Positions 4,277 to 21,841 of a stretch of DNA of 48,944 nucleotides are shown here, piece by piece (position 1 is the first letter of the stretch; every line of letters begins with the position of its first letter). Below the pieces are notes generated by a model that was given only the letters and a program-made list of their open reading frames with translations, had not been told where the DNA came from and ran no database searches. The translations under genes and the position numbers were made by a program. Source of the stretch: Roseburia sp. (GTDB lineage Bacteria > Bacillota > Clostridia > Lachnospirales > Lachnospiraceae); NCBI GenBank assembly GCA_023662875.1, contig JAMPIG010000017.1, positions 1 through 48,944 on the forward strand, read 5' to 3'.

Positions 4277-5154
4277 CAAGAATCAATACGCTCGCAAATA
4301 TAAATATATGCATCCTCCAGCGTCGCCTCGCAGGGACTGCACTCTACCCCGGGCGGCGTCTCGCCGATCAATTTCATCTGCAATTCTTCCCCAGCATACT
4401 GCTTTGATAAAACGCGATAATTCTTTTCCAACTCCCTTGCCGCTTCTTCCTCCCGCACACTGCAGACCCAGACATGGCCTCTCACCTGCTCCAATAACCC
4501 CTTCACGCTTCCCGTATAAAGAAATTCCCCTTTCTTCATAACCGCGAGCTGATTACAGGCTGCCGCCAGATCCTCTACCACATGAGTTGAAAACAGCACG
4601 GTGCGGCCCTCTGAAAAATCAACCAACAGATTTCGGATGCGGATACGCTCTTCCGGGTCTAATCCGGTTGTGGGCTCATCGACTATTAAAACCTCCGGCT
4701 CATTCAGCAGCGCCTGGATGAGTCCGACCCTTCGTTTCATGCCGCCGGACAAATGCTTTATCTTCTTTCTGCGATGCTCTGACAGATTTGTCTTTTCCAG
4801 ATAGTAGGGAATGCGTTCCTTGTAGATCCGCTTAGGTGTCCCCGATAAATCCCCCAGATATTCCAGACATTCCTGTACGGTCAGGCTTGGGTACAAATCA
4901 ATTTCCTGTGGCAAATACCCTATTTTTCGCTGTATTTTTTCATGGTTTTCCTTGCAGTAGCGTATCCCGTCAAGAGTTACGGTTCCGCTGACAGGTGAAA
5001 CAAGAGTCGTCAGCACCCTCATCAGCGTCGTTTTTCCCGCCCCGTTTTCCCCTAACAGCCCAAAGACTCCCTTTGGAATCTCCAAACTCGCATGATTGAT
5101 TGCCGTCACTTTATTTTGAAATGTTACCGTTAAATCCTCTATTCTGATTCCCAT
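4276..5154 (-). CDS. ABC exporter ATP-binding protein
   Basis: This 292-residue ATPase of the ABC-2 exporter type has Walker A GENGAGKTT (about residues 34-42), the Q-loop GYLPQEIDLYP, the signature LSGGMKRR, Walker B VLIVDEPTTGLDP and the H-loop STHVVED. The last 70 residues form the variable accessory region common in bacteriocin-immunity and CcmA-like ATPases. It is the last gene of a minus-strand set with two membrane proteins (5225-5917, 5893-6957), which it should energise. A histidine kinase and response regulator lie upstream on the same strand, so the exporter is probably induced by a cell-envelope or peptide signal. The exported compound is unknown. Confidence 0.9.
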   Translation of the reverse strand: MGIRIEDLTVTFQNKVTAINHASLEIPKGVFGLLGENGAGKTTLMRVLTTLVSPVSGTVTLDGIRYCKENHEKIQRKIGYLPQEIDLYPSLTVQECLEYLGDLSGTPKRIYKERIPYYLEKTNLSEHRRKKIKHLSGGMKRRVGLIQALLNEPEVLIVDEPTTGLDPEERIRIRNLLVDFSEGRTVLFSTHVVEDLAAACNQLAVMKKGEFLYTGSVKGLLEQVRGHVWVCSVREEEAARELEKNYRVLSKQYAGEELQMKLIGETPPGVECSPCEATLEDAYIYICERIDS

Positions 5155-5155
5155 T

Positions 5156-5243
5156 GTTTCAGCCTCTCTTCCTGACTGTTTCAGCTTTCCTTCCAGATCG
5201 TTTCAACTCCTCTTCCTGATTATTTCAGCCCCTCTTCCTGATT
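5156..5243 (-). repeat. Four 22-bp tandem repeats rich in SD-like sequence
   Basis: Units at 5156, 5178, 5200 and 5222 each have 22 bp and start (plus strand) with NTTTCA. On the coding strand each unit carries AGGAAGAGG or a near variant, resembling a ribosome binding site. The array fills the gap between the stop of the membrane protein and the ATG of the ATPase, and its last unit overlaps the membrane protein's stop. The unit length is not a multiple of three. Confidence 0.8.
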
Positions 5244-5917
5244 GCTTCAGGCAATATTGCCAGCATGATCGCACTGATACAGATACAGACTATTTTCCCG
5301 CGTATCCAGCTGAAATCGCCGCTGCTTTCGATATCCCTGAAGGTATAAGAGAATAAGTTCCACGCTCCTAAATATCTGTCGCCGATACTGGAATTTGTGA
5401 TCACCCACAAGATCAGGCAGCCTCCAATCCCGAACCACATATTTCGGAGCAGACAGGAAAGCAGATTCGACAACAGCCCCCAAAACAAAAGCGTGACAGC
5501 AATGGAGGCAAGGTATATAAGGAACTGCCCCGTTTCATTTCCCGAACCCGACCGCATCCTGTCAACCGTTCTCGGATTTTGAAACAGAAAAAACAATCCG
5601 TATCCGACGACTGCAGCCGCCAGCAGAAATACTTCCTGTATCACAATTCTCCTGTAAATAGCTTGCATTTTCTTTTTCATAGGGTATAGCCGCCAGATTT
5701 CCAACCTTTTGCCGGTAATTTCCTTTGTATAGGTATCTGCGAGGACGCAGGCTGCAAGCAACGCCATCGGCGTCTCCAACGCAATCCCCACTTCAAAAGA
5801 ATAGGTTACTCCCCTGACAAGACTTAACATCACAATGAAAAAAACTGCACAGGAAACCTTGTAGACCGGAAGTGAGATTTTTGCTTCCTGCCTCAATATA
5901 CCCGCCTCCTTTTCCAT
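5225..5917 (-). CDS. Membrane protein of ABC-2 exporter
   Basis: A 230-residue integral membrane protein with about six hydrophobic segments, for example VSCAVFFIVMLSLV near residue 22, a pair around 95-150, and a final helix near 200-220. It has no enzymatic motif. It overlaps the preceding permease by 25 bases and precedes the ATPase, so it is most simply the second transmembrane subunit of the same exporter. Heterodimeric permeases of this size occur in lantibiotic immunity and similar ABC-2 systems. The start at 5917 is supported by the overlap. Confidence 0.75.
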   Translation of the reverse strand: MEKEAGILRQEAKISLPVYKVSCAVFFIVMLSLVRGVTYSFEVGIALETPMALLAACVLADTYTKEITGKRLEIWRLYPMKKKMQAIYRRIVIQEVFLLAAAVVGYGLFFLFQNPRTVDRMRSGSGNETGQFLIYLASIAVTLLFWGLLSNLLSCLLRNMWFGIGGCLILWVITNSSIGDRYLGAWNLFSYTFRDIESSGDFSWIRGKIVCICISAIMLAILPEAIRKRG

Positions 5918-6957
5918 ATCTGCATCGAGAGAAAAAGAATGCCCGCGGAGGCCAGAATTAAAAAGCTCTGGTTCAGCAATACCATCGGCGGTGGAGAAGT
6001 ATCGAAAAACGCTCCCGGAAACCGCACTATAATCGCTAACGGTCTGCCATAATATCCGTACACGCCGTTGGCGTCCCTGCTTCCCATATTCGAATATACG
6101 ATATACAGGAGCAAAAGCGGAACTGCGGGCAGCGGACTTTTAAATAGCAGCGAAACCAAGCTGTAGACGCTTACAATCATCAGCATATTCGGCAGAATAT
6201 AAAGACAGGTCGCCAGCAGGAAATCCGACAGCTTTACTTCAAATCCGCTGCTTTTGGTAAATACCGAGCATAACCCGAAAAATACCAGGTTTAAGACGGC
6301 AAGCGCCACCAGGCAGACCGCAAAGCCTCCCCCTGCTTTCCCCAATAAATAATTCCCCGCGCCGACAGGCTTTGTATGAAGGAGCTCATAGTTACTCTTC
6401 CTTGTATCCTGCGCGAACAAAGCGGCAAATAAAACCGTTGCCAGAAACCCCATAAACAGCCCGGCAAAATCCGCGAATTTTCTGGAAAAATAATACGAAA
6501 AGGTTCTGTTTTCCAGTTTTTCCGCAATATAAGCGTTGATTTCCTCCCGTGTTCCCTTATGATAGGCTGTATCCACATAAGCAATATAAGCGCCGTAATA
6601 CCGGTATTCTTCCAGATGTCTGCAGGCTTCCATGATATCCATTCCTTCCGTTTCACGGATAACAGCCTGCGCTTCCTCCCGCTTCATCCGCAATTCGGAA
6701 ACCAGGGTTTCCTGCACATACGCTTCCCAGGCTTCACGCCTTGCCGCCTCATCCGTCGGCACATATCCCTCAAAAACATCCCCCTCGCGGAAGGTTTCCG
6801 GATAATCATTCACAATCTCCTCCCCTTCGGCGAGATACCGAATCCTCAGGTAGGGACCGACACTTTGAAATACCATAAAAGCAACGGCCGCGATACCAAT
6901 CCAGAACAGAGGCTTTTTTATATAATTCCTTACCTCTCTTGTTAAAATGGGGCACAT
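5893..6957 (-). CDS. ABC-2 type permease subunit
   Basis: A 354-residue permease starts MCPILTREVRNYIKK at the ATG at 6957, with AAGGAGG 7 bases upstream. A longer upstream frame is excluded because it runs through a 19-bp tandem repeat. The first helix lies at about residues 17-35, followed by a large polar domain of about 120 residues and then a block of roughly five helices from residue 165. The FAQDTRKSNYELLHTKPVG segment is the cytoplasmic loop typical of ABC-2 permeases that contact the ATPase. It overlaps the next membrane protein. Function is inferred as export or self-protection against a peptide. Confidence 0.8.
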   Translation of the reverse strand: MCPILTREVRNYIKKPLFWIGIAAVAFMVFQSVGPYLRIRYLAEGEEIVNDYPETFREGDVFEGYVPTDEAARREAWEAYVQETLVSELRMKREEAQAVIRETEGMDIMEACRHLEEYRYYGAYIAYVDTAYHKGTREEINAYIAEKLENRTFSYYFSRKFADFAGLFMGFLATVLFAALFAQDTRKSNYELLHTKPVGAGNYLLGKAGGGFAVCLVALAVLNLVFFGLCSVFTKSSGFEVKLSDFLLATCLYILPNMLMIVSVYSLVSLLFKSPLPAVPLLLLYIVYSNMGSRDANGVYGYYGRPLAIIVRFPGAFFDTSPPPMVLLNQSFLILASAGILFLSMQIWKRRRVY

Positions 6958-8433: not shown

Positions 8434-9095
8434 CGGTATCCCATCCCCCATACCGTTTCAATATATTCCGTTTCTGTATATTCCCGAAGCTTGTTCCGGA
8501 TTCTGCGGATCAGCTCCGTAATTACCCTGCTGTCCCCCTCCGCGTCAAATCCGCAGACCTTCTCATAAATCCTTTCCCTGTCAAAGACCATTCCCGGATT
8601 CATAGACAGAAATTCGAGGATTGCGTATTCCAGCTTCGTCATCTCCAGATAATCCTCCTGAATCTGTACGGTCCTGGCCCTGTAATCGATCGTCAATTCA
8701 CCCCGGAAACAGCATTCCGCCGCAGTTTTGCGCCGACCCTCCCGTTTCAGGTGCGCCGTAATCCTCGCGTCAAGCTCCTTCAGGCTGAACGGCTTTAAAA
8801 TATAATCGTCGCCGCCCGACAACAGCCCGTTCACAACATCCTGCTCTTCTACCCTTGCCGTCAGAAATAAAATGGGACAGGCCACTTTATCCCGTATCCT
8901 GCGGCATACCTCTATTCCGTCCGCTCCCGGCATATTTACATCCAGCAATATGAGATCCGGCTGTACCTTTATCTTATCCAACCCCTCTGCGCCGTTTTCC
9001 GCCGTAACGATTTCGTACTTTTTCATTTCAAAGTACCTTCTCAGCATTTTAAGAAGATCCTTGTCGTCATCGATCATCAATATTTTATACGCCAC
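8421..9095 (-). CDS. OmpR-family response regulator
   Basis: A 224-residue regulator. Its receiver domain has the acidic pair (MIDDDKD), the phosphorylation-site aspartate in LILLDVNMPG, the T/S switch in FLTARVEE and the Lys in ILKPFSLKEL. A winged-helix Trans_reg_C domain (about residues 125-224) ends ETVWGMGYRWIK. The start is a GTG at 9095 with a weak GAAGAG site. The gene is translationally linked to the kinase that follows it. The GTGT-N19-TATAAT promoter at 9321-9352 points into this operon across a 225-base leader. Confidence 0.9.
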   Translation of the reverse strand: MAYKILMIDDDKDLLKMLRRYFEMKKYEIVTAENGAEGLDKIKVQPDLILLDVNMPGADGIEVCRRIRDKVACPILFLTARVEEQDVVNGLLSGGDDYILKPFSLKELDARITAHLKREGRRKTAAECCFRGELTIDYRARTVQIQEDYLEMTKLEYAILEFLSMNPGMVFDRERIYEKVCGFDAEGDSRVITELIRRIRNKLREYTETEYIETVWGMGYRWIK

Positions 9096-9211
9096 TTCTA
9101 CACTCTTCCCCTGATACGCCTGCTCTTGGGCACATTTTTTCCGGTTCCACTCCCGACGGTTCAGCTCCCGACGGTGCAGCCCCTAACCTTGCAATCCTTT
9201 TTTCCACACTC

Positions 9212-9311
9212 GCAAACACGCGCTTCGCGCTCTTTGTCCTGCTTCGCAGGACGTTTGCTCGTTAACGGCGCGGGAAAATCAAATGTCTGCTTCGCAGCCG
9301 CTTGATTTTCC
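9212..9311. repeat. Two cruciform elements with inner TTC-loop hairpins
   Basis: Element I (9212-9258): outer GCAAAC/GTTTGC arms enclose two hairpins, GCGCTTCGCGC and TCCTGCTTCGCAGGA. Element II (9273-9311): a perfect 10-bp outer stem GGAAAATCAA/TTGATTTTCC encloses CTGCTTCGCAG. Both have the same design of an outer stem plus inner GC-rich hairpin with a TTC loop. Related cores occur near 9810-9836 and 36915. They lie in the 5' leader of the minus-strand two-component operon. Confidence 0.7.
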
Positions 9312-9320
9312 TTTACGCCT

Positions 9321-9352
9321 ATTATAACAAGTATTTCTTCAAATTACACTAA
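9321..9352 (-). promoter_or_regulatory. Promoter, GTGT-N19-TATAAT type
   Basis: Minus-strand TATAAT at 9321-9326 is preceded by TGT, with GTGT exactly 19 bases upstream inside TAGTGTAAT. It is placed to drive the response regulator and kinase at 9095-7252. Confidence 0.6.
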
Positions 9353-9540
9353 GATTCTTACATCCCTTGCGCGTCTTAGCACCTGACGATCAGTAGTGCT
9401 TTGACGATAGAAACATCATGCCGCCAACAGCAGCACAAACAATCAATGAGCGGGCGCAAGCCCGGAAGAACACAAGTGCAGAAAATTATGCACAGATTGA
9501 AGCTTACACAATAATCGCGATAGATTATTCCCCGCCCTTA

Positions 9541-9630
9541 TGGTATAATAACCTTATTCAGGGCAGGGAACGGCCGAATGGCCATCCATGCCGTGATTGC
9601 GGAGCAATCGCGGAGCAATCATGGTATAAT
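9541..9630 (+). promoter_or_regulatory. Two upstream -10 copies (P1, P2)
   Basis: ATGGTATAAT occurs at 9540-9549 and again at 9621-9630. Both are extended -10 elements (TGG-TATAAT). The P2 copy is followed by GTCCGCAAAGG, which recurs after P3 at 9776. Good -35 boxes are not seen. Between them lies GATTGCGGAGCAATC, a small hairpin. They look like duplicated promoter segments pointing to the downstream BceR-like gene. Confidence 0.45.
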
Positions 9631-9647
9631 GTCCGCAAAGGGCAGAG

Positions 9648-9746
9648 TCAAATGATCGAAGAAGCAGCTGCCGTGCTCGCACGAGCAGATGTTTCTTCGG
9701 TCATTTGACGAGCGAAGCGAACCCGAAAAATCCCTGATTTTTCGGG
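9648..9746. repeat. Two long hairpins between P2 and P3
   Basis: Hairpin 1 (9648-9708) has 16-base arms TCAAATGATCGAAGAA / TTCTTCGGTCATTTGA, paired with a single imperfect position. Inside them is a second stem (CTGC/GCAG) around CGTGC-TC-GCACG. Hairpin 2 (9722-9746) is a perfect 11-bp stem CCCGAAAAATC/GATTTTTCGGG. A transcript from P2 would fold both directly after its start. No protein frame explains this stretch. Confidence 0.65.
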
Positions 9747-9772
9747 TCTCTGCCCGAGACTTGCAGCAAACA

Positions 9773-9781
9773 TGATATAAT
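9773..9781 (+). promoter_or_regulatory. Extended -10 (P3) before the BceR-like gene
   Basis: TGATATAAT is an extended -10 box about 100 bases before the regulator's ATG. It is followed by GTCCGCAAAGG as at P2. A -35 at the usual distance is poor. Confidence 0.45.
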
Positions 9782-9880
9782 GTCCGCAAAGGAAAAGCAA
9801 GCGGCTGCGAAGCAGGGCAGAGAGCGCGAAGCGCGAGCTTGCGAGTGAATCTGAGGGAGAAGCCGCACCGGAGGTGTATG

Positions 9881-10543
9881 ATGCAAACCATTATGATTGT
9901 TGAGGACGACCCCGATATCCGCGAGGAGCTGGCCTTTCTGCTGGAAAATGAAGGGTATCGAGTCTTGTCTGTAACGGACTTTGAAGCTCTCCCGGAACAG
10001 ACGCGCGCCGCCTGTCCGGATCTGGTTCTTCTGGATTTGGGTCTGCCCGGACGGGACGGGCTTTCCCTGTGCGCCGCGATACGGAAAATCGCGCCCATTA
10101 TCGTAGTCACCAGCCGAACCTCCGCTTTGGACGAGCTTCGGGCGTTGAACCTGGGCAGCGACGACTATGTGACCAAGCCCTACAATATCCCCGTCCTGCT
10201 GGCCCGGATCAAGGCAGTCCTGCGGCGAAACGGCGGAGAAAGGGCAGAGCCGGAGGGCTTAAAGGCGGCGGGGCTTTTCTTAAGTCTGACAAAGGGAACC
10301 GTGACCGCCGACGGGCGGACGGCGGAGCTGACCCGAAACGAGCTGAAAATTTTGGCCTACCTGATGACCCGCGCCGGGGAAATCGTCTCCCGGGCCGAAC
10401 TGATCGAGGCGTTATGGGACAGTCAGATTTATATCGACGACAATACCCTCAGCGTCAACGTGACCCGCCTGCGGGGCAAGCTGGAGGGCTTAGGGATGCC
10501 GGACGCAATCAAGACGCGCCGGGGAATGGGGTATCAACTATGA
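9881..10543 (+). CDS. BceR-like response regulator
   Basis: A 220-residue OmpR-family regulator begins MQTIMIVEDDPDIREEL. The ATG at 9881 is chosen from two adjacent ATGs because GGAGG is 7 bases upstream. The receiver aspartate lies in LVLLDLGLPG, the switch Thr in IIVVTSRTS and the Lys in YVTKPYNIPVL. The C-terminal winged helix ends IKTRRGMGYQL. The short, compact receiver and the partner kinase with almost no sensor domain are typical of BceRS modules, where the transporter itself detects the peptide. Its stop overlaps the kinase start (ATGA). Likely targets are the BceAB-like genes at 13374-16086. Confidence 0.88.
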   Translation: MQTIMIVEDDPDIREELAFLLENEGYRVLSVTDFEALPEQTRAACPDLVLLDLGLPGRDGLSLCAAIRKIAPIIVVTSRTSALDELRALNLGSDDYVTKPYNIPVLLARIKAVLRRNGGERAEPEGLKAAGLFLSLTKGTVTADGRTAELTRNELKILAYLMTRAGEIVSRAELIEALWDSQIYIDDNTLSVNVTRLRGKLEGLGMPDAIKTRRGMGYQL

Positions 10544-11562
10544 CGGCGGGAGAATTTATTACAGACAGACTGGGACGGATGCTCCTCAGCGTCTCGTTTC
10601 TCTTTGCGGCTGCTGCCTTTTTGCTTGCAACAGGCACGCAGCCGGGCGTTGTCGTCCTTCTGCTGATCGTGTGCCTGCTGATTTTTTTGCTGGAGCAGTT
10701 TTTCTGTTTTCGGAGGATGAAAAAGCGATTGAGCGAGCTACAGGCGATTATGAGCGAATTGGATCAACGGTATCTTTTTGCCGAGTGTGCGTCCAAACCC
10801 CGCAGCCTCTACGAACGCAGGCTGTTTGACCTGTTTCGCCTGTCCGGCAAGTCCATGATCGAGACCGTGTCGGACGCGCAGGCCGCGGGAAGGGAGTATC
10901 GGGAATATATTGAGCAGTGGGTGCATGAAATCAAGACGCCCATCACGGCGGCAAAGCTGATCTGTCGGAATATGGACAGCGATACGGGACGTAAGCTTTC
11001 GAGGGAGCTGGCGCAGATCGACGCCCATGTGGAGCGGACCCTGTACTATGCAAGAAGCGAGAGCCCGGAAAAGGATTTTCTCGTCAGCAGAACGGAGCTT
11101 CCCGCGATCTGCGAGGAAGCCGTTCAGACGCACAGAGCCCTGCTGATCGAAAACGGCGTCCGGGTGGAGACGGAAAATCTGGACGGGCGCGTTTATACAG
11201 ACAGGAAGTGGGCGGCGTTCATGCTGGGACAGCTTTTGCAAAACGCCGCCCGGTATCGCGGGGAAAGCCCTGTTATCACATTGTCCGGCAGGAGGCTGGG
11301 GCGGCAAATGCAGCTTGCCGTTCAGGACAACGGGCCTGGTATCCCTGCCCATGAGCTGCCCCGCGTCTTTGACAGAGGCTTTACCGGAAGAAACGGCAGA
11401 AGCCGGGGCGGCTCCACCGGTATGGGACTGTATCTCTGCAAGCGGCTGGCGGACGCTTTGGAAATCGGCCTGCAGATTCAGTCGATAGAGGGAGCCGGAA
11501 CCTGTGTGACGCTGACCTTTCCGGCGGAAATGGAACATCCTCAAAATGACTCAAAATCATAA
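10540..11562 (+). CDS. BceS-like intramembrane-sensing histidine kinase
   Basis: A 340-residue kinase has two helices near residues 13-32 and 36-54 separated by only a few residues, so it has essentially no extracellular sensor. A coiled linker follows, then the H box EYIEQWVHEIKTPITAAKL, close to the BceS consensus, then the N box (QLLQNAARY), G1 (DNGPGIP) and G2 (GSTGMGLYLCKRLA). In this family the kinase reads the flux state of a BceAB transporter, which here starts 1.8 kb downstream rather than next door. The reading frame continues upstream within the regulator gene, but ATG 10540 with the 4-base overlap is the natural start. Confidence 0.9.
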   Translation: MTAGEFITDRLGRMLLSVSFLFAAAAFLLATGTQPGVVVLLLIVCLLIFLLEQFFCFRRMKKRLSELQAIMSELDQRYLFAECASKPRSLYERRLFDLFRLSGKSMIETVSDAQAAGREYREYIEQWVHEIKTPITAAKLICRNMDSDTGRKLSRELAQIDAHVERTLYYARSESPEKDFLVSRTELPAICEEAVQTHRALLIENGVRVETENLDGRVYTDRKWAAFMLGQLLQNAARYRGESPVITLSGRRLGRQMQLAVQDNGPGIPAHELPRVFDRGFTGRNGRSRGGSTGMGLYLCKRLADALEIGLQIQSIEGAGTCVTLTFPAEMEHPQNDSKS

Positions 11563-11600
11563 TTTATGCTCACGCCTGAAGCACTTGCCGGGATTCCGCA

Positions 11601-11667
11601 GCAAGTGAGTGTGACTGTGATGCAATCAAAAACAGCAACCAGACAGAATGCTCACGAGAAGCATCTC
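11601..11667. repeat. Long direct repeat, left copy
   Basis: This segment matches 13083-13150. Its last 47 bases (TGCAATC to GCATCTC) differ by one insertion and two substitutions; the first 20 bases match at 15 positions. The two copies bracket the inverted acetyltransferase and VapBC genes, with about 1.48 kb from copy to copy. Confidence 0.85.
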
Positions 11668-11709
11668 TTCCGACTACTCTGTAAGCCCGAATTTATACCT
11701 CTAACTCAT

Positions 11710-11740
11710 ATAATAAAGTCAAAAGAACTGACTTTATTAT
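11710..11740. terminator. AT-rich palindrome between convergent genes
   Basis: ATAATAAAGTC and GACTTTATTAT form a perfect 11-bp stem with a 9-base loop. It lies after the BceS-like kinase and just beyond the stop of the oppositely oriented acetyltransferase. It is placed to end transcription from both sides, although the stem is AT-rich and no clear U-run follows. Confidence 0.4.
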
Positions 11741-11747
11741 CCAAGGG

Positions 11748-12209
11748 CTATAATGCAACAGATCGCCCATTGGGATAATCTATAATATTCACAATTTTAA
11801 ATCCCAATTTTAAATATATCTTCTTTACAACTTCTTCATCAAGCGCTGTATCCAATCGTATATACTTTATCCCCTTCTCTTTGCAAAGCTGTTTGATCGC
11901 CTCAATAATGAAATCTGTCATGCTTCTACCGGCAAATTCCCGTTTTACACAAAGCTTGTGCAAATATACAGCTTCATTTTCCGTATCAGCCCAGTACTCG
12001 GAATCTCTCCGTTGTAAAATAAATGCGCAAACTGCAACGCCATCTATTTTACCAATATAAAAATTCTCTGGCTGCGCATCTATCGTAATCAGTTCTTCTT
12101 TTGTCAGCCATTCATCCCGCCATATGCGAAAGCCCTTATTTCGCCCCCACGCAGCAACTTCCCTCATAATCTTAATCGCTTCATCAATCTGATTTGAATC
12201 AAGCTCCAT
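11748..12209 (-). CDS. GNAT-family N-acetyltransferase
   Basis: A 153-residue protein starts at MELDSNQIDEAIKIM (12209), with AGGGG about 6 bases upstream; a longer frame begins at 12242. The GNAT core is visible: beta4 ENEAVYLHKLCVKREFAGRSMTDFII carries the V-x-R-x-x-x-G/A acetyl-CoA site (a degenerate Q/RxxGxG/A), and KLGFKIVNIIDY is the typical closing strand. The acceptor is unknown; proteins of this type acetylate small amines or other proteins. It lies in reverse orientation inside the BceRS-BceAB module and within the direct-repeat block together with a VapBC pair. Confidence 0.8.
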   Translation of the reverse strand: MELDSNQIDEAIKIMREVAAWGRNKGFRIWRDEWLTKEELITIDAQPENFYIGKIDGVAVCAFILQRRDSEYWADTENEAVYLHKLCVKREFAGRSMTDFIIEAIKQLCKEKGIKYIRLDTALDEEVVKKIYLKLGFKIVNIIDYPNGRSVAL

Positions 12210-12307
12210 TTTATCCCCTGTAACTCCTGATTTGTAAATCAATCCCCCGCTGCATAATCTGAAGCGGCAAGATAAGATCTCATTTCGTCAAATCAATCCA
12301 ATATATT

Positions 12308-12713
12308 CTACACAGAAATGATAAAAGACTCCTCATAATATGGAATCAATGAATCATGCGTAAGAAATTTCATATTCTCTATTTTTGCCTGACATATAAG
12401 AATACGATCGAATGGAGCTTTGTGCTTTGGAGCAGCTTCAGATCGTTTAAGCGTTTTCAAAGCAAACACATGGCTCTTATTAAGCGAAAGCTCACGAAAA
12501 CCTGCCATTTCACAACACTTGGCAAATATCTCCCCCCTCGGCAATGCTTAAGTCTGGTCTGGCAATACCCTTAATAGCAATTTCCCAAACCGAAACCGCA
12601 CTGTAGAAAAATTCATTTTCGCTGTCGCTAAGAATATCCCGCGCTTTTTTCGATAACTTATCTGCATCAAACACTGACCACATAGCAATATGGGTATCAA
12701 CCAAAATATTCAT
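12308..12713 (-). pseudogene. VapC-like PIN toxin with one-base frameshift
   Basis: The first frame starts at ATG 12713 (MNILVDTHIAMWS) and reaches VSVWEIAIKGIARPDLSIAEGG before leaving frame. The rest of a PIN domain (EIFAKCCEMAG, PFDRILICQAKIENMKFLTHD) continues in the next frame to 12308. The coding strand has a run of six G at 12532-12537. With five G the two parts join into one ~134-residue protein that keeps all the PIN acidic positions (LVDT, WEI, FDRI, THD). It could be an inactivating mutation, slippage-controlled phase variation or a sequencing error. Its ATG overlaps the antitoxin's stop by one base. Confidence 0.75.
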
Positions 12714-12976
12714 CAGTCATTCACGCCAAACATTTCAGCAATTTCATCATTACATTCATCAATGTCATGTCCGTCGGCAATATACTTCATTCCATTAAAC
12801 AATCCCAACTTAATTCCTCCCTTTTCTGAATTGCTTGCGGAGTTCTTTTCTATACTGATTTTATGTTCCTTTTTTCGCTTTTCAGAAAGAAACTGAATAT
12901 AATTTACTACCATCTCATAATCTTCTTTTTCCAGTGTATTCAACATATCGTTTACCTGCCATGCTGCTGGTGCCAT
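12713..12976 (-). CDS. Antitoxin of the VapBC-type pair
   Basis: An 87-residue protein starts MAPAAWQVNDMLNTLEKED at ATG 12976, 8 bases after GGAGG. The first half is helical (DYEMVVNYIQFLSEKRKKE), resembling small antitoxins that pair with PIN toxins in Clostridia. The C-terminal half is acidic (DGHDIDECNDEIAEMF), which suits toxin binding. The gene ends with its stop overlapping the toxin's ATG (ATGA-type joint). The GTGT-N19-TATAAT promoter at 13021-13052 lies directly upstream. With the toxin out of frame, the antitoxin may be free of its partner. Confidence 0.65.
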   Translation of the reverse strand: MAPAAWQVNDMLNTLEKEDYEMVVNYIQFLSEKRKKEHKISIEKNSASNSEKGGIKLGLFNGMKYIADGHDIDECNDEIAEMFGVND

Positions 12977-13020
12977 ATAACCACCTCCTGATCGATCTTC
13001 ATTTTTATTATCCAAATTCT

Positions 13021-13052
13021 ATTATAACAAAAAATCCCGTCGTTTACACTAT
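13021..13052 (-). promoter_or_regulatory. Promoter, GTGT-N19-TATAAT type
   Basis: Minus-strand TATAAT at 13021-13026 has TGT before it and GTGT exactly 19 bases upstream in TAGTGTAAA. It lies about 45 bases before the antitoxin ATG. It is nearly the same as the element at 2006-2037. Confidence 0.65.
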
Positions 13053-13082
13053 ATTTTTCTGTAAAAAGGAGCTTCCTCTGTA

Positions 13083-13150
13083 ACGAGTGAACGTAACTGT
13101 GATGCAATCTAAAAACAGCAACCAGACAGAATGTTCACGGGAAGCATCTC
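13083..13150. repeat. Long direct repeat, right copy
   Basis: Partner of 11601-11667 (see there). The copies have the same orientation. Sequence to the right of this copy leads into the hairpin and ribosome site of the BceA-like gene, while sequence left of the left copy follows the BceS-like stop. The simplest picture is that one copy stood between kinase and transporter before the insertion. Confidence 0.85.
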
Positions 13151-13276
13151 GCGGGCGGAGCTGCCCGTTCTGCGCCAATCTTACAAAAACGTAAGGAAAA
13201 TCCATATCAATTCGATACAACCGATTCCTCTTTTGTGCTATCCTAAGGATGTGCCTCAAAATAGTTTGCGCAACTT

Positions 13277-13340
13277 AGATTTTCTTAGTCCGCGTACTAA
13301 AGAGGTGTGCTACGCACCCTCTTGCGGGCTTAGAAAATCT
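13277..13340 (+). promoter_or_regulatory. Large leader hairpin before the BceA-like gene
   Basis: Arms AGATTTTCTTAGTCCGC and GCGGGCTTAGAAAATCT pair over 17 positions with two mismatches. Inside, AGAGGTGTGC and GCACCCTCT form a second stem with a short loop. The structure ends 21 bases before the AGGAGG of the transporter gene. It could be a transcript-stabilising or attenuating leader, or a palindromic repeat of the kind seen at 9648-9746. Confidence 0.5.
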
Positions 13341-13373
13341 TTGCACACTTCCCACGACAAAGGAGGAATCCGT

Positions 13374-14132
13374 ATGCTGCAAGTACAAAATATCGAAAAA
13401 TATTACGGAACCGGAAACAATGTCACCAAGGCGCTGGACCGGGTGAGCTTTACCGTGGCGGACGGCGAATTTATCGCTATCATGGGCGCGTCCGGCAGCG
13501 GCAAGACCACCCTGCTCAACTGTATCTCCACTATCGATACCGTCAGCGCGGGGGACATTCTGTTGGATGGGGAGAGCATCGCAGAGCTGCCCTCCGGCGA
13601 GCTGGCGAGGTTTCGCCGGGAAAAGCTGGGCTTTGTCTTCCAGGATTTCAATCTGCTCGACACGCTGACGCTGGAGGAAAATATCGGGCTGGCGCTGACT
13701 CTCAACCACTCCGACCCGAAAGCGGTGCAAAGCCGGGTACAGAACACAGCCGCAAAATTGGGCATCGGGGACGTATTGGGCAAGTTCCCCTATCAGGTGT
13801 CGGGCGGACAGAAGCAGCGGGCCGCCTGCGCCAGGGCGATGGTCGCGGGACAGTCTCTTCTGCTGGCGGACGAACCCACCGGGGCCCTGGACTCCGGCGC
13901 ATCGAAAAATCTGCTGGAGATTATGACCCGGATGAATCAGGATATGGACGCCACCATCCTTATGGTGACCCATGACGCATACAGCGCAAGCTACGCGGGG
14001 CGCGTTCTGTTCTTGAAGGACGGGCGTCTTTTTAACGAGCTGCTCCGGGGAGAGCGCAGCCGCAGCGTATTCTACCACGAGATATTAGACGTGCTGGCTT
14101 TGTTGGGAGGTGATATCAGTGACGTTATCTAA
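13374..14132 (+). CDS. BceA-like ABC transporter ATPase
   Basis: A 252-residue ATPase of the MacB/BceA group starts MLQVQNIEKYYGTG at ATG 13374, 7 bases after AGGAGG. It has Walker A GASGSGKTT, the Q-loop VFQDFNLLD, the signature VSGGQKQR, Walker [13 protein letters not shown] and the H-loop MVTHD. In BceAB systems this subunit powers release of peptide antibiotics from lipid-linked cell-wall precursors and, with the permease, reports to the kinase. It overlaps the permease start by 14 bases. A long upstream extension of the frame is ignored because it runs through the direct repeat and hairpin. Confidence 0.9.
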   Translation: MLQVQNIEKYYGTGNNVTKALDRVSFTVADGEFIAIMGASGSGKTTLLNCISTIDTVSAGDILLDGESIAELPSGELARFRREKLGFVFQDFNLLDTLTLEENIGLALTLNHSDPKAVQSRVQNTAAKLGIGDVLGKFPYQVSGGQKQRAACARAMVAGQSLLLADEPTGALDSGASKNLLEIMTRMNQDMDATILMVTHDAYSASYAGRVLFLKDGRLFNELLRGERSRSVFYHEILDVLALLGGDISDVI

Positions 14133-16086
14133 ACTGTCCCTCCGCGGCGCCAAACGGCAGGCCGCCGATTACCTGATTTATTTTGTCACAATCGTCATGG
14201 TATGTGCCATGCTTTACGCCTTCAACTGTCTTGTCTTTTCCGAGGAAATCCACAGCCTGTCCGGCCTGCTGGATAATATGACCGTGACGATTGTGCTTGC
14301 CAGTATCGTAGTCGTTTTTATCATCGGATGGCTTGTGTCCTACACAACAGGCTTTATGCTGTCCCGCCGCAGCCGGGAGCTGGGAACCTATCTGCTCATC
14401 GGACTGGAGAACAGACAGGTGGCCCGCCTGTTCTTTCTGGAAAACCTGTGGGTGGGCGGCGTCGCGCTATTGTTCGGCGTCCCGCTCGGCAATCTGGTCT
14501 ATCAGGCACTCCGCGCTATCCTGCTGACCATGTTCGGTACGCCCTATCATTTTCAGTACCGTTTTTCCCTGAAAGCCATCGGACTCACCTTTCTCTATTT
14601 TGCCGCAATCTTTTTCTTTGCGCTGTTCCGAAGCCGGAAACGGATTCGCCGCATGAAAATATATGATCTCATTTATTTTGAGCGGCAGAATGAGGCGGAG
14701 CTTTTGAAAAAGAGCAAAACGCGCAAAACCTTATTTACGGCCTCCATCATCCTGGGGCTTGTGGGAACGGTTCTGCTGATGACGGCGAAGAAGCTGCTGA
14801 TCGGCGTCCTTGGCGCGGGATGTGTCATCGCGTTCCTGTACGGTTTCTTTACCAGCTTTTCCTCCGGCGTCCCGAACTACTTTAACCGAAAGCCGGAGCG
14901 GAAATACCGGGGACAGAATCTGATCCTCTTCCGCTCCCTGACCGCAAAGCTGGCGGCGATGGGGATCGTCATGGCGACGGTCTCGCTGCTCTTTACCGCC
15001 ACCCTGCTGACGGAAGGAGCCGGTCTGGTGTTCAACGGTATTTTCCAGGGGCGGCTGGAGAGGGACTCTTTTGATCTACTGTTCGTATCCGATCAGGAAA
15101 GCCATACGGAGCAGTGCCGGGAATACATGACGGAGCAGCTTCCTCTGACCGCGTTATGGCAGTACAGGCTCTACCGGGGTAACAGCGATTCCCTGGTAAA
15201 ATATCTGGAGGAAAACGCAGGCTACCTCCTGTACAGCTATGACCACGATTATAACGGAGCCGTACTCATGGCGTACAGCGATTACGCCGCCCTGCGGGAT
15301 ATGCTTCAGCTTCCCGCGGCGGAAGCAGAGCCTGACCGTTATATCGTCCACTGTATGCCTTATCTGAAGGATGCGCTCAGCCGCTGGAATCAGCCTCTTT
15401 CATTGGATGGTAAGACCCTGTCTCCGGGCCGGATTTATACGGAGCAGCTTGCCCAACATCTTTGGAACGGCAACGGCCACCAACTTCTGCTGGTCGTTCC
15501 GGATGAGGTCTGCGAGACCCGCCCGGTGATCCGGTATGCCCTGGCCGCCATGACGGAGTACAACTTCACAGCGCAGCAGATGGTGGAGCTTCAGCTGTCT
15601 CTCGCGGAGCGGGCGACGGACGGCGTTCACGTCCTCTGCAGTGATTGGGATCTTCTCTATTCCAAATCCGTAAATATGGCCGACACTGCCGTGTGGTCCG
15701 CGATGTCGGTGTTCCCCCTTTTCTACCTGGCTCTGACCCTCGCCATGACCGCCGCCACCGTTCTGACCGTCCAACAGCTTAGCGAGGCGGAACGTTACCG
15801 CCGCCAGTTTGAGCTGCTCCGCAAGCTGGGACAGGATTACCGTGAAATGCGGCGAGCGTTGTCCCGGCAGCTTGCGATTTACTTTTTACTGCCGGCAGTT
15901 CCCCCGGTCGTGATTGCCATTCCCTTTACCTTGGATCTGTGCCGCGGGGTGGAGCCGGGCACCATGACAGGCGCCAACAGCCCGACCGTAATTCTGGCGA
16001 TTTCTCTGGGACTGTTTTTTCTGGTATACCTGATTTATACCGTGATCGCCTATCTCAGCATGAAGCGGAATGTGCTGCCGGAATAA
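14119..16086 (+). CDS. BceB-like permease
   Basis: A 655-residue FtsX-family permease starts at a GTG at 14119 (VTLSKLSLRGAKRQAADYLIY), 8 bases after GGGAGG; a GTG three codons earlier is possible. The layout fits BceB: helices near 18-40 and 60-80, four more by residue 250, helix near 275-300, an extracellular domain of about 200 residues (about 310-520), and three C-terminal helices. The large domain senses or binds the peptide in this family (established for BceAB-type transporters). The gene should work with the BceA-like ATPase and the kinase at 10540. The antibiotic specificity cannot be read from sequence. Confidence 0.88.
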   Translation: MTLSKLSLRGAKRQAADYLIYFVTIVMVCAMLYAFNCLVFSEEIHSLSGLLDNMTVTIVLASIVVVFIIGWLVSYTTGFMLSRRSRELGTYLLIGLENRQVARLFFLENLWVGGVALLFGVPLGNLVYQALRAILLTMFGTPYHFQYRFSLKAIGLTFLYFAAIFFFALFRSRKRIRRMKIYDLIYFERQNEAELLKKSKTRKTLFTASIILGLVGTVLLMTAKKLLIGVLGAGCVIAFLYGFFTSFSSGVPNYFNRKPERKYRGQNLILFRSLTAKLAAMGIVMATVSLLFTATLLTEGAGLVFNGIFQGRLERDSFDLLFVSDQESHTEQCREYMTEQLPLTALWQYRLYRGNSDSLVKYLEENAGYLLYSYDHDYNGAVLMAYSDYAALRDMLQLPAAEAEPDRYIVHCMPYLKDALSRWNQPLSLDGKTLSPGRIYTEQLAQHLWNGNGHQLLLVVPDEVCETRPVIRYALAAMTEYNFTAQQMVELQLSLAERATDGVHVLCSDWDLLYSKSVNMADTAVWSAMSVFPLFYLALTLAMTAATVLTVQQLSEAERYRRQFELLRKLGQDYREMRRALSRQLAIYFLLPAVPPVVIAIPFTLDLCRGVEPGTMTGANSPTVILAISLGLFFLVYLIYTVIAYLSMKRNVLPE

Positions 16087-16224
16087 TCGCGCATCCGGCA
16101 GACGCTTTCCCCCATCCTTTCAATCGAGCCAACTCCCGAGATAAGGTCAGTCTCCGCAGCGCCCGTATTTGCTGACTGGTAAAAATGTCTCTTGCGAGAT
16201 CTGCGGTTCCGAACCCGAAAAAGC

Positions 16225-16254
16225 TTGACCGCCAGGGATATCCTGTGATAGAGT
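16225..16254 (+). promoter_or_regulatory. Possible promoter of the glycan operon
   Basis: TTGACC at 16225-16230, an 18-base spacer and TAGAGT at 16249-16254 stand 34 bases before the first gene of the glycan operon. The -35 is good and the -10 weak. Confidence 0.35.
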
Positions 16255-16287
16255 AACTATATAGTTTGGCGAAGGAGGTAGCGGGGA

Positions 16288-16986
16288 ATGACAGTGGGCC
16301 TTTGTCTGCTCACCTGGAATGAGATAGAAGGATGTAAGCACGACGTACCCCTGATAGACAGAAGTCAGTTTGAGCAGATTTATTGTATAGACGGCGGAAG
16401 CAGCGATGGTACGGTAGAGTATCTGACGGAACAGGGGATTGAGGTTTATCCGCAGACCGCGAAGGGGCTGAATCAGGCCTGCAAGGACGGTGCGAATCAC
16501 TGCAAGTGCGACGCCTTTGTTTTCTTTCACCCAAAAGGCTCCGTTCCGGTGGAGGACGCCTATAAGTTCAGAAGCTATTACGAGCAGGGCTATGAGCTTG
16601 TCGTAGCCAGCCGGATGATGAAGGAAAGCAGAAACGAGGAGGACGGAAAGCTCCTCAAGCCGCGCAAGTGGTTTGTTTTGGGTCTGGGACTGGCGGCAAA
16701 GCTTCTTTTCAAAAAAGAAGGGAATACGGTGTGGGACGCCTTGCATGGATTCCGGGGGATGACGGTGGAGGCGTTTCAGAGATGTAATATCTCGGACAGA
16801 AGTCCTTCCGTCGATATCGAGATGGTCTGCAGAAGCTATAAGCTTGGTATCCGGAGAGTCGAATTTCCTACTGTAGAATCTCCCAGAATCGCCGGAAGCA
16901 CCCACTTTAAGGCCTTTGCCACCGGGAAAAAGCTGCTGAAATATCTTGCCTGGGAGATCTTCCGAAAGGAACAGGGAAATGATTGA
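16288..16986 (+). CDS. Polyprenyl-phosphate sugar transferase, DPM1-like GT2
   Basis: A 232-residue GT2 starts MTVGLCLLTWNEIEG after GGAGG. The nucleotide-binding core is seen in IYCIDGGSSDGTVEYL, the region GLNQACKDGANHCKCDAFVFFHPKG and the LHGFRGMTVEAFQ plus DIEMV segments, matching the dolichyl-phosphate mannose synthase/ArnC group without the C-terminal helices. Such enzymes load a sugar onto undecaprenyl phosphate at the inner membrane face. Directly downstream lie two EmrE-like half proteins and a GT-C enzyme, the other parts of an Arn- or Gtr-like route. The stop overlaps the next ATG. The reverse-strand frame of similar length is a shadow. Confidence 0.82.
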   Translation: MTVGLCLLTWNEIEGCKHDVPLIDRSQFEQIYCIDGGSSDGTVEYLTEQGIEVYPQTAKGLNQACKDGANHCKCDAFVFFHPKGSVPVEDAYKFRSYYEQGYELVVASRMMKESRNEEDGKLLKPRKWFVLGLGLAAKLLFKKEGNTVWDALHGFRGMTVEAFQRCNISDRSPSVDIEMVCRSYKLGIRRVEFPTVESPRIAGSTHFKAFATGKKLLKYLAWEIFRKEQGND

Positions 16987-17335
16987 GTCATTAAAGCGCA
17001 ATAAAAAGGGGATCCTGTTAATGATATGCTCCAGCGTCTGCGTATGTCTGGGGCAGCTGCTGTGGAAGCTGTCAGTAGATGGCGGCTTTCTTTTTTTGAT
17101 TGCCGGATTTCTTCTGTATGGGATAGGCGCGTTAGCCATGATTATCGCCTATAAGTTCGGCAAGGTATCCGTATTGCAGCCAATCTTAAGTCTGAATTAT
17201 ATCCTGAGTATGATTCTGGCGGCAGTCGTATTAAAGGAAACGATTTCCCTGATTAAGTGCATCGGGGTGCTGAGCGTTATGGCCGGAGTTCTTTTAATTG
17301 CCGGGGGAGACGAGGTGGAACATGCTGATTGTTAG
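16979..17335 (+). CDS. EmrE-like half flippase subunit 1
   Basis: A 118-residue protein with four helices (about 12-30, 35-55, 63-85 and 90-108) of the small EamA/SMR type, similar in design to ArnE/ArnF. It starts MIESLKRNKKG at ATG 16979, overlapping the transferase stop. The helix GQLLWKL near residue 26 and the loop YKFGKVSVLQPILSL are typical of DMT half-transporters. With the next gene it would form a heterodimer that flips the lipid-linked sugar to the outer face. Multidrug export is the alternative, but the neighbours favour glycan work. Confidence 0.75.
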   Translation: MIESLKRNKKGILLMICSSVCVCLGQLLWKLSVDGGFLFLIAGFLLYGIGALAMIIAYKFGKVSVLQPILSLNYILSMILAAVVLKETISLIKCIGVLSVMAGVLLIAGGDEVEHADC

Positions 17336-17672
17336 CTCTGTTTTTCTGATGACGCTAATGGGTTCCGTCGCCAGTCTGTTTTTAAAGCAGGCGTCCGGCT
17401 CTCTCAAGGGAGAGAACCTGGCCGCAGTCGTCCTGAATATGCTGAAAACGCCCAGTTTATATGTTGGAGGACTGTTGTATCTTACCGCTTCCGTGTTAAA
17501 TATTTACGTGCTGCGGGTCATGGATTATTCCACTGTTTTGCCGCTTTCGGGCTTTACCTATGTATGGACGATGCTGCTGGCCCGGCTTAAATTCGGGGAA
17601 AAGCTTACCACCAGAAAGGCTGCGGGAGTTTTACTGGTGCTGATCGGGGCGGTATTGGTGTCGAGGAACTGA
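17322..17672 (+). CDS. EmrE-like half flippase subunit 2
   Basis: A 116-residue, four-helix protein starts MLIVSSVFLMTLMG at ATG 17322 and overlaps subunit 1 by 14 bases. It has the same motifs in the same places: SLFLKQASG after helix 1, LRVMDYSTVLPLSGFTYVW, and LTTRKAAGVLLVLIGA at the end. The paired arrangement in different frames with overlap resembles arnE-arnF. The Lys in LFLKQ is the counterpart of LLWKL in subunit 1. Likely role: inner-to-outer leaflet movement of an undecaprenyl-phosphate sugar. Confidence 0.75.
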   Translation: MLIVSSVFLMTLMGSVASLFLKQASGSLKGENLAAVVLNMLKTPSLYVGGLLYLTASVLNIYVLRVMDYSTVLPLSGFTYVWTMLLARLKFGEKLTTRKAAGVLLVLIGAVLVSRN

Positions 17673-17693
17673 CAGCCAGGCTGAGACTGCAAA

Positions 17694-17773
17694 ACAATAG
17701 AATTCACGCTTCCCGAGAATTCTATTGTCATGAACAATAGAACTTACGCTCCGCGAAAATTCTTTGTCATTAA
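17694..17773. repeat. Tandem pair of 40-bp palindromic repeats
   Basis: Copy A (17694-17733) has perfect arms CAATAGAATTC/GAATTCTATTG around a 10-11-base GC-rich loop and ends GTCATGA. Copy B (17734-17773) follows directly with a decayed version. A third copy lies at 31291-31330 on the other strand and matches copy A at 37 of 40 positions. This is a dispersed REP-like element. It sits between the flippase and the GT-C gene. Confidence 0.85.
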
Positions 17774-17784
17774 AAAGAGGAGAT

Positions 17785-17835
17785 ATGACGCCTTTATCCC
17801 GCGTCATGCAAAGCTGGTATGAAATATTTTCTTAG
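17785..17835 (+). CDS. 16-residue leader peptide
   Basis: ATG 17785 is 1-2 bases after an AGAGGAGAT stretch and opens a 16-codon frame (MTPLSRVMQSWYEIFS) that stops at 17835, just inside the next gene. The next gene's ATG at 17819 has only a weak ribosome site of its own, so translation of the short peptide may feed its start. It could also be chance. Confidence 0.3.
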   Translation: MTPLSRVMQSWYEIFS

Positions 17836-19528
17836 CGACAAAAAAAGATACTTGTTCCCGATTATACACTTTCTGCTTTCCTTTCTGTACGAGAGATTTA
17901 TTTTCGTGTTCGGCCCGGGGCGGGATATTGCGCTTCCGGTTCCCAGGAACTACATTATCAGCGATACGGCGGAGAGAGTCCTGGCCTATGTGATCTCAAA
18001 ACTGTTTGCGGCCGTCATCATCTTTTTCCTCTGGTCCCTGCTTTTCTGGATCATTGAAAATTGGAAAAAACGAAGAAATATCCGATTTTTCCTGGTACTT
18101 TTTGCGATATGTCTGATGATAGTGACGCTTATTTGGCCGCTTACGTTTTATGCGAGCACCGATAACTATATCACTTACTCCTTTGCCAGAAGATTCTGGC
18201 CGGAATACTGGCACAGCGCTTATACGGGATTCCTGTATGCGGCTCTGCTCATGGTATTTCCAAACCCTGTATTCATCGCTGTATTCCAGCTGGTCTTTGG
18301 CTTTTTTGTCCTGGGCTATCTGTATAACCGAATCGTGGATAGTCCCGTTTTACGGGGGAAGGGAAAGTACTGTGTATTTCTTATTTTTTTAATACCAAGA
18401 ACTTATGCCCTTTTTACCGACCCTTATCGCACAGAGCCGTACGCCCTGTTGTGCATGTTCGCTGTTTCCATGACTGCCATGGACGTTGTAGACCAGAGAA
18501 AAAGGGGGAATTTCAGCTTAGTCTGCAATATCCTGTTGTGCGGATTTCTCAGCGTATGGAGAACGGAAGGAATTATTCTCGGGTTTCTTCTGTTCCTTGT
18601 ACAGCTCTTGTTTGTGTACAAATATAAGCCCCGCAAGATCCTTGTTTCGTTCCTGTGCCTGCTGCTCTCGTTCGGTATGTTCTTCACACCGCAGAAGCTG
18701 GGCGATATAAAGTATTACGGAAAAGACTATTCCTTTATCAACTCCTTTAACACTTTGAAAAATATCCTCTGTTCCCCCGACGCAAATATCTACTATGTGG
18801 GAGTGGAGGACGACCTGATGGCATTGGAGGCGGTGACGCCGGTAGAGCTCATTCGTTATTACGGCATGGACGGATACAGAAGATATAATTACGCAAACGG
18901 AAGGGACGATATCAACCAGAGCCTCGTGGACGACAAAACCGCTTCGGCCTACATGAAGGCCTATTATCGGCTCTTAATCCATAATCTGCCGATTTACGCG
19001 AAAACCCAGGTCAGTATGCTGCTCACTGCAATTTCGATAATCCCGAATCGATATAATTTACCCTGCGTAGAGCCGCCCGTTAACGATCTGCCGTCCTGGA
19101 CCTTGAAAGCCTGGAGCATCGGCGAGCAGGACTACTTTGGCACATTGTCTTTCCTGACACCGCTGGCAAATTGGGAAAGTCGCCAGCGCTTTTCGACCTC
19201 CGCCTGGGAGGCAATCGGCAGCTTTGAAGACATACTGCGGGAAATCCATTTCTACAGCGCTGTTTTGATTCTGATTCCATTGTTTGAAATATTTCTTTTT
19301 TTCAGAGAGGGAATCCGGTTCCTGAAAAAAAAGAAGAATTTATTTGGTCTGGCGGGGATAGCGTTCCTGTTGCTGGGGCAGGCGGCGGCGATCGTGCTGG
19401 TGATGCCGGCTACGATGATAGTGTACCTTCATCCGTATTATTACTGTTCCCTCATCCTCTGCCTGATCTATGCAAACTGTTTAAAAAGCCGAAAAATACA
19501 GGAGAATGATCTGAATGGAAAACCTTGA
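17819..19528 (+). CDS. GT-C-like membrane glycosyltransferase
   Basis: A 569-residue multi-spanning protein. It has helices near residues 12-30, 55-80, 92-112, a cluster from 130 to 260 and a final set from 460 to 555. The central region from about 290 to 455 is polar and probably extracellular. No soluble nucleotide-sugar motif exists, consistent with GT-C enzymes that use lipid-phosphate sugars outside the cell. A charged motif between helices 3 and 4 (ASTDNYITY) lies where GT-C enzymes carry catalytic acids; this reading is tentative. Its partners upstream would supply the lipid-linked sugar. The ATG at 17819 overlaps a short leader frame, and the stop overlaps the flavoprotein start by 14 bases. 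Confidence 0.6.
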   Translation: MKYFLSDKKRYLFPIIHFLLSFLYERFIFVFGPGRDIALPVPRNYIISDTAERVLAYVISKLFAAVIIFFLWSLLFWIIENWKKRRNIRFFLVLFAICLMIVTLIWPLTFYASTDNYITYSFARRFWPEYWHSAYTGFLYAALLMVFPNPVFIAVFQLVFGFFVLGYLYNRIVDSPVLRGKGKYCVFLIFLIPRTYALFTDPYRTEPYALLCMFAVSMTAMDVVDQRKRGNFSLVCNILLCGFLSVWRTEGIILGFLLFLVQLLFVYKYKPRKILVSFLCLLLSFGMFFTPQKLGDIKYYGKDYSFINSFNTLKNILCSPDANIYYVGVEDDLMALEAVTPVELIRYYGMDGYRRYNYANGRDDINQSLVDDKTASAYMKAYYRLLIHNLPIYAKTQVSMLLTAISIIPNRYNLPCVEPPVNDLPSWTLKAWSIGEQDYFGTLSFLTPLANWESRQRFSTSAWEAIGSFEDILREIHFYSAVLILIPLFEIFLFFREGIRFLKKKKNLFGLAGIAFLLLGQAAAIVLVMPATMIVYLHPYYYCSLILCLIYANCLKSRKIQENDLNGKP

Positions 19529-20759
19529 TTATTTAATTCTCGGCGCGGGTCCGGCAGGGCTGACCTTCGCGAACCTGCTCCGAAAAAAAACGCCGGAGCT
19601 GACGTTCCTGGTTCTGGAAAAGGAGGACACCGCAGGCGGACTGTGCCGTTCGAAGGATGTGGACGGAGCGGCCCTGGATATCGCGGGCGGCCATTTCCTG
19701 GACGTGAGGAGACCGGAGGTCAACCGCTTTCTTTTTGATTTCATGCCGCAGGAGGAGTGGAATCTTTTTGAGAGGGACTCACGGATTGATATGGGAACCT
19801 ACGAAATCGGACATCCCTTCGAAGCGAATATCTGGCAGATGCCCCAGGAGGAACAGGTTCGTTTTTTGAAATCCATCGCGGTAGCCGGATGTAATCTGGG
19901 GCTGCCGATGCCGGAGAAATTTGTGGATTGGGTGGCCTGGAAGCTGGGAGACAAGGTTGCGGAGGCTTATATGCTTCCCTATAACGGCAAGATGTTCGGC
20001 GGGGAGCTGGACGCTCTGGGAACCTACTGGCTGGACAAGCTGCCGAACGTCTCCTTCGAGGAGACGCTTCTGAGCTGCCTGAACCGAAAGCCTTACGGCA
20101 CGCAGCCGGGACACGCGCAGTTCTATTACCCGAAGAAGTATGGCTACGGCGAACTCTGGGAGAGAATGGGGCGGGCTTTGGGAGATCGGATTTTATATCG
20201 CAAGACAGTTCGGAAGATCAATCCTGAGAAAAGAACCGTAACCTGCGCGGACGGATCCGTTTTCAGCGCAAGTCATGTGATTACCACGATTCCCTGGAAA
20301 TCCGTACCGGAATATGAGGATTGCCGACAGGATATCGTCGATCATATCGGGAAGCTGAAATCCACGGGGACGGAAATAAAGTATGTACCGGAAAATCTGG
20401 ATACGGAAGCGCACTGGATCTATATCCCCGATCCCAAGATCCCCTGCCACAGAATTCTTGTGAGGCATAATTTCTGCGTCGGCAGCAGAGGATACTGGGA
20501 AGAGACAAATCTCAACCGGACTGTGGACACGGGCGGCGAGTATGTCTTTGTCAACGAATACACCTATCCGTTAAATACCATCGACAAGCCAGCAATTATG
20601 GCCGGGCTCCTTGAATACATGAGGCGGCGCGGCGTGTATGGGCTGGGACGGTGGGGAGAGCACGAGCATTATAACTCCGACCGCACAGTGGAGAGGGCGA
20701 TGGAATTGTTCCGGGAGCTGGTCGAAAACAGAAAGGCTACTGATCATGTGGGAGTGTGA
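19515..20759 (+). CDS. FAD-dependent UDP-galactopyranose mutase-like protein
   Basis: A 414-residue flavoprotein. The N-terminal Rossmann motif DYLILGAGPAGLTFANLL (about residues 5-22) binds FAD, followed by the acidic strand end LVLEKEDTAGGLCRS and AGGHFLDVRRPEV. The order and the YYPKKYGYGELWERMGRAL segment match UDP-galactopyranose mutase and related amine-oxidase-fold mutases. In this operon it would isomerise a nucleotide sugar, for example to a furanose form. True Glf proteins are slightly shorter and have conserved arginines I cannot place surely, so mutase-like is as far as I go. Overlaps exist on both sides, indicating one transcript. Confidence 0.65.
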   Translation: MENLDYLILGAGPAGLTFANLLRKKTPELTFLVLEKEDTAGGLCRSKDVDGAALDIAGGHFLDVRRPEVNRFLFDFMPQEEWNLFERDSRIDMGTYEIGHPFEANIWQMPQEEQVRFLKSIAVAGCNLGLPMPEKFVDWVAWKLGDKVAEAYMLPYNGKMFGGELDALGTYWLDKLPNVSFEETLLSCLNRKPYGTQPGHAQFYYPKKYGYGELWERMGRALGDRILYRKTVRKINPEKRTVTCADGSVFSASHVITTIPWKSVPEYEDCRQDIVDHIGKLKSTGTEIKYVPENLDTEAHWIYIPDPKIPCHRILVRHNFCVGSRGYWEETNLNRTVDTGGEYVFVNEYTYPLNTIDKPAIMAGLLEYMRRRGVYGLGRWGEHEHYNSDRTVERAMELFRELVENRKATDHVGV

Positions 20760-21833: not shown

Positions 21834-21841
21834 AGCAGAAA

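Follow-up and report, generated by a model that had tools for sequence, protein, structure and literature searches.

A probable old captured gene insert, unlikely to be an excisable cassette, divides a Bce-type module in Roseburia

Within the 48,944-nucleotide stretch of Roseburia sp. DNA analyzed here (the window; contig JAMPIG010000017.1), a Bce-type module is divided by a block of genes on the opposite strand, which separates the BceS-like kinase gene from bceAB. It is likely that this block represents an old captured insert at a tolerant seam rather than an excisable cassette. The window belongs to a 3.72-Mb assembly of 151 contigs and ~92% completeness (genome G000, contig C60). A second genome, G052, bears the same arrangement of block and repeats, which makes an assembly artefact unlikely.

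The module comprises a BceR-like regulator (9839–10543), a BceS-like histidine kinase (10540..11562, + strand; best solved match BceS 8g3a, E 4.3e-39), a BceA-like ATPase (13374..14132, + strand; ABC_tran, E 2.2e-32), and a BceB-like permease (14110..16086, + strand; FtsX, E 9.4e-17; best solved match BceB 7tcg, E 6.8e-14). A BceS-like kinase and a BceAB-like transporter are encoded together here, as is characteristic of a Bce-type module, and the kinase probably controls the pump that is encoded beyond the insert. Upstream of the regulator gene, two TATAATGTCCGCAAAGG copies and several imperfect palindromes can be seen by eye (window 9550–9870).

The extent of the insertion can be appreciated by comparison with G108, the closest block-free relative with a readable locus (kinase 77% and transporter 79% identical); G104 is closer (kinase 82% identical), but its contig ends within the kinase gene. 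The G108 locus aligns with the window in two stretches (4811–6466 with 11525–9870 and 4736–4803 with 13244–13177), and the edges of these local alignments delimit an inserted segment of 1651 bp (11526..13176) that replaces 7 bp of the G108 spacer. This block-free spacer supports the initial annotation of the block between BceRS and BceAB as foreign to the spacer. The direct repeats had been placed at the block ends; they do bracket the block, but the inserted segment is longer, and both repeats lie within it—78 bp (L) and 26 bp (R) from its edges. Because of this position, excision between the repeats would not restore the normal spacer, contrary to what had been proposed: one crossover between L and R would leave ~169 bp, one repeat included, instead of the ancestral spacer. 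The block revealed no recombinase-like frame, and the repeats exceed the length of an IS target duplication, both in line with the initial annotation. Furthermore, no transposase frame was found in the block, no target duplication was seen at the junctions with respect to G108, and no integrase or donor was found for the insert. The locus thus does not show what a composite transposon would have at its flanks, namely IS copies that encode a transposase and are bounded by a target duplication.

The repeats themselves (L, 11604..11667; R, 13086..13150; both + strand) are real—a 23-mer with up to three mismatches occurs twice in the window and in none of 100 shuffles—but they are less alike than the term "near-identical" had suggested: 59 of 65 alignment columns agree (91%), with an exact 23-mer in common. 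The own assembly holds no third copy, the other two matches at E≤10 spanning 14–15 bp only. When 196 genomes (own included) were searched with the left repeat, only G052 gave real matches beyond the window, in two copies; matches in G053 (E 0.0025) and G024 (E 0.0099) lie within ordinary coding frames and were discarded. Hence, the expectation that the same repeat would flank other cargo did not hold among these genomes. In the genome contig collection, a degenerate 21-base pattern of the repeat matched twice in JAMPFT010000010.1, the contig of G052, and once each in one cyanobacterium and one Bifidobacterium, with an estimated two or so matches expected by chance; the viral contigs gave no match to this pattern. 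Also the anticipated empty site with one repeat copy did not appear, as none of the 16 cargo-free loci described below holds the repeat: in each of them, the match to the repeats is equalled by no fewer than 17 of 100 shuffles.

Other identities for the repeat were considered and rejected. As a protein-coding remnant, a 49-residue translation of the G052 left-repeat region was searched in the 196 genomes and matched the window, G052, and seven others at E 0.0075–0.046; six of these seven were inspected at the DNA level and judged to be chance. As an RNA, four Rfam matches in 9000–22500 remain far below the cut-offs, and none lies inside the insert. As a hairpin, the repeat folds not clearly better than shuffles on the + strand of either the window (z −0.04 for L, −0.65 for R) or G052 (−0.21 and −1.47); a similar imperfect hairpin is possible in both copies (GTGAG/CTCAC in L, GTGAAC/GTTCAC in R).

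G052, in which the block sits at the same position, is the only other genome found to carry it, and a comparison of the two allows a view on its age. Identity to the window amounts to 94.4% in the kinase, drops to 78.5% in the zone 11530–11594 and 84.9% in the left repeat, and rises to 98.3% in the block, 98.5% in the right repeat, and 100% in the right spacer. The two repeats of G052 agree in 47 of 65 columns (28% apart), and L and R are thus closer to each other in the window than in G052; slices shifted by a base or two gave 47 of 66 for G052 and again 59 of 65 for the window. The same block with diverged repeats—an outcome that the initial annotation had named as speaking against its own proposal—is therefore what the only such relative found displays. 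Four repeat columns unite the two L copies against the two R copies, while none unites copies by genome; since copies in the same position pair up in these site patterns, the duplication of the repeat is probably older than the split between window and G052. Twelve columns changed in the G052 L alone and one in the window L alone, so either the G052 L changed fast or the window L was partly rewritten from R, and a later exchange between L and R could have taken place. Set against locus L039, window 11530–11675 forms a patch that is ~15–21% diverged, mostly by transitions, between neighbors that are 94–100% identical, which suggests a mosaic locus.

The cargo appears to be in decay. The described VapBC pair is recognizable from a PIN fragment and a weak VapB-like frame, but VapC is split over two frames. 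Its N-terminal part (12510..12713, − strand) bears the PIN domain (E 3.7e-4; 21.5 bits, slightly below the Pfam cut-off of 23.6) and ends in an early stop, whereas the C-terminal fragment (12308..12544, − strand) lies in another frame, has a counterpart fragment in G052, and gives no Pfam match on its own. The VapB-like antitoxin frame (12713..13015, − strand) is open; its match to NCBIfam TA_VapB is weak (16.8 bits, where the cut-off is 60). In G052, VapC is broken as well, at a different point, and VapB is again open, so that neither genome has an intact PIN-domain toxin beside the antitoxin. As VapC is broken in both genomes, it is very unlikely that addiction holds the block now, as had been envisaged. 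G069 likewise has an open VapB frame but has lost 156 bp from the VapC region; in G044, the pair is intact, with the VapB relative adjoining an intact PIN protein of 134 residues. No plasmid relatives of VapB were found in 72,556 records.

The third member of the block, a GNAT acetyltransferase of 164 residues (11748..12242, − strand; Acetyltransf_1, E 9e-8), is without the last five residues (YELEV) of the 169-residue G052 copy. A role as drug-resistance enzyme found no support, with the best aminoglycoside model reaching 27.7 bits against a cut-off of 140, and the PADLOC models gave no hit for the three block proteins. GNAT relatives (e.g., in G017, 80%) and VapB/C relatives (e.g., in G069, 86–88%) occur apart; among the matches listed, with a small number of candidates scored per genome, G052 alone combines the two at high identity. 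Homology to the cargo elsewhere stops slightly inward of the repeats, at positions 11678 and 13070. From the separate occurrence of the relatives and from these end points, the block is probably a composite; the end points would also suit a former role of the repeats as boundaries.

The 3′ end of the GNAT gene carries a 40-bp hairpin unit (11709..11748) between two TATAAT copies, and the DNA fold of 11700–11760 reaches a z of −4.46. As this unit is absent in G052, it was recently gained or lost. It belongs to a family of units of 38–40 bp, often in tandem, which occur in the window also at 21735–21829 and 39970–40055, as well as in L045:1711–1796, L031:1500–1582, and L131; judged by eye, their stems differ in sequence yet keep pairing, the GNAT-tail unit alone having been folded.

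A second, separate insertion lies in the bceA leader, where a palindromic element of a dispersed family (13245..13357) has no counterpart in the G108 spacer. Copies of this family measure ~85–110 bp. The own genome contains at least 49 matching stretches (40/70 candidates scored, some being pieces of one copy), G052 contains 29, G104 three weak ones, and G108 none.

How the seam between kinase and operator is organized can be seen across relatives. Kinase matches occur in 37 of the 196 genomes, and 22 loci with kinase and BceA in line (the window and 21 others) were measured, both genes being required on one fetched stretch. Fifteen genomes were thereby left out: G104 and G036, whose contigs end in the kinase; G062, whose contig ends beside BceA; G040, in which BceAB is inverted; G021 and G090, in which BceA lies on another contig and 2.8 kb and 0.56 kb, respectively, follow the kinase without BceA; and nine genomes with weak, probably paralogous kinase matches. 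The seams of G021 and G090 may be interrupted too. In G040 (L110), the inverted BceAB directly follows the kinase, so that this seam has been rearranged in another way.

On the BceA side of the insert, we predict a BceR/GraR-type operator (TTACAAAAACGTAA, 13181..13194, + strand) from its likeness to the GraR operator, given as ACAAATTTGT in passages of PMC3128592. For Staphylococcus aureus, the same passages report an imperfect palindrome that precedes vraFG and falls inside the end of graS. The palindrome TT[AT]CA-N4-NGTAA, a pattern written post hoc and without shuffle control, is found upstream of bceA in 21 of the 22 loci; in G020, its place looks alike by eye with one base changed. For 12 of the 16 cargo-free loci, the kinase stop codon constitutes the last three bases of the palindrome. 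In G019, the palindrome is found inside the kinase end, and in G001 and G081 it follows 10 and 67 bases later. Its distance to bceA ranges from 86 to 342 bases in the cargo-free loci (15/16, where the pattern was found).

The remaining six of the 22 loci hold gene cargo of several kinds, in each case upstream of the palindrome: the GNAT–VapB/C block in the window and G052, a glycoside hydrolase 95 in G049, an HTH regulator in G058, 8.6 kb including BlaR1-like and penicillinase-repressor-like genes in G047, and 3.9 kb with HTH and ABC genes in G080. A 115-bp stretch at the right end, reaching ~50 bp upstream of the palindrome, is common to G047 and G080, which may share one old insertion. All six cargo loci bear a different kinase tail (in the window ...FPAEMEHPQNDSKS vs ...FPAKMNLTKM in G108) and keep the palindrome 91–193 bases before bceA. 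On the kinase tree, the cargo label needs four gains or losses, at least three of them on well-supported branches, and three of these changes may correspond to a single gain followed by two losses. With 62 of 500 shuffles reaching an equally low number, clustering of the label is not significant.

Since insertions at this seam part two complete units, we interpret it as a site that tolerates insertions and here contains an old insert in decay. A further step would be to regard the seam in this genus as a true cargo-exchange hotspot, at which genes of unrelated kinds would be acquired and exchanged time and again. In this view, the kinase stop overlaps the operator, and insertions would hence part the module into two self-sufficient units; nevertheless, the hotspot remains a tentative and rather doubtful proposal.

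For the block itself, the explanation first put forward was a mini-cassette without its own recombinase, which would have entered through homologous or site-specific recombination at repeat copies and could still excise. Such a cassette would account for direct repeats that stand at both block ends, are unique in the genome, and lie just outside the limits of cargo homology, and an exchange of sequence between L and R would also agree with it. However, the repeats are contained in a larger insert and are 28% apart in G052, and the features expected of a site-specific cassette—a single-copy empty site, a recombinase in cis, and other cargo with the repeat—were not found in the 16 cargo-free loci, in the block, and among the 196 genomes, respectively. 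This explanation thus appears improbable.

Alternatively, the GNAT–VapB/C cargo might formerly have belonged to a small mobile element, of which the two repeats would be the decayed ends or copies. Two direct copies do bracket two modules that are found singly elsewhere, and the imperfect hairpin possible in both L and R would suit such an element. On the contrary, a third copy is missing from the own genome and no copy exists beyond G052 among the 196 genomes, the folds do not stand out clearly from shuffles, and the translated repeat copy gave weak matches only, all of which renders this relic quite improbable. That the repeat is just an intergenic element of frequent occurrence, without any relation to the block ends, can be largely dismissed: dispersed palindromic elements do exist in the genome, including the one ~100 bp away at 13245–13357, but the repeat has two copies in the own genome and two in G052.

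An old captured insert at a tolerant seam fits these observations better as a whole, and the following course of events is proposed. The insertion would have happened once, in the common ancestor with G052, by a rare non-specific or homology-assisted capture of a two-module cargo, the GNAT gene and the VapB/C pair. This cargo would have come to lie in opposite orientation, with the BceS-like kinase gene on one side and the likely BceR operator on the other. The repeats might stem from an internal duplication or might be the remains of a small carrier that arrived with the insert. The bce module presumably still works, as bceAB would retain its predicted operator and promoter. Today, the cargo would be decaying, with VapC broken, VapB surviving as a lone antitoxin, and GNAT possibly active.

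Compared with known systems, the locus resembles BceRS–BceAB and GraRS–VraFG modules in gene order, in its BceS and BceB matches, and in the predicted GraR-type palindrome, but differs by the 1651-bp gene insert between kinase and palindrome and by a bceA leader that is 113 bp longer. Composite transposons and translocatable units carry cargo between two direct repeats, as does the window; here, however, the block bears no transposase-like frame, no target duplication is seen, and the repeats measure only 65 bp and were not found elsewhere. Integron and toxin–antitoxin gene cassettes bear small toxin–antitoxin and acetyltransferase cargo like that of the block, which in contrast has no integrase, a broken VapC, no array, and repeats whose folding does not clearly surpass that of shuffles.

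Direct repeats that enclose a gene block need not be attachment sites, as cargo-free relatives do not bear them. The locus also provides an example of toxin–antitoxin cargo with a broken toxin gene beside an antitoxin frame that is still open. It further shows how a tightly packed resistance module can accept foreign genes while its pump keeps the likely operator.
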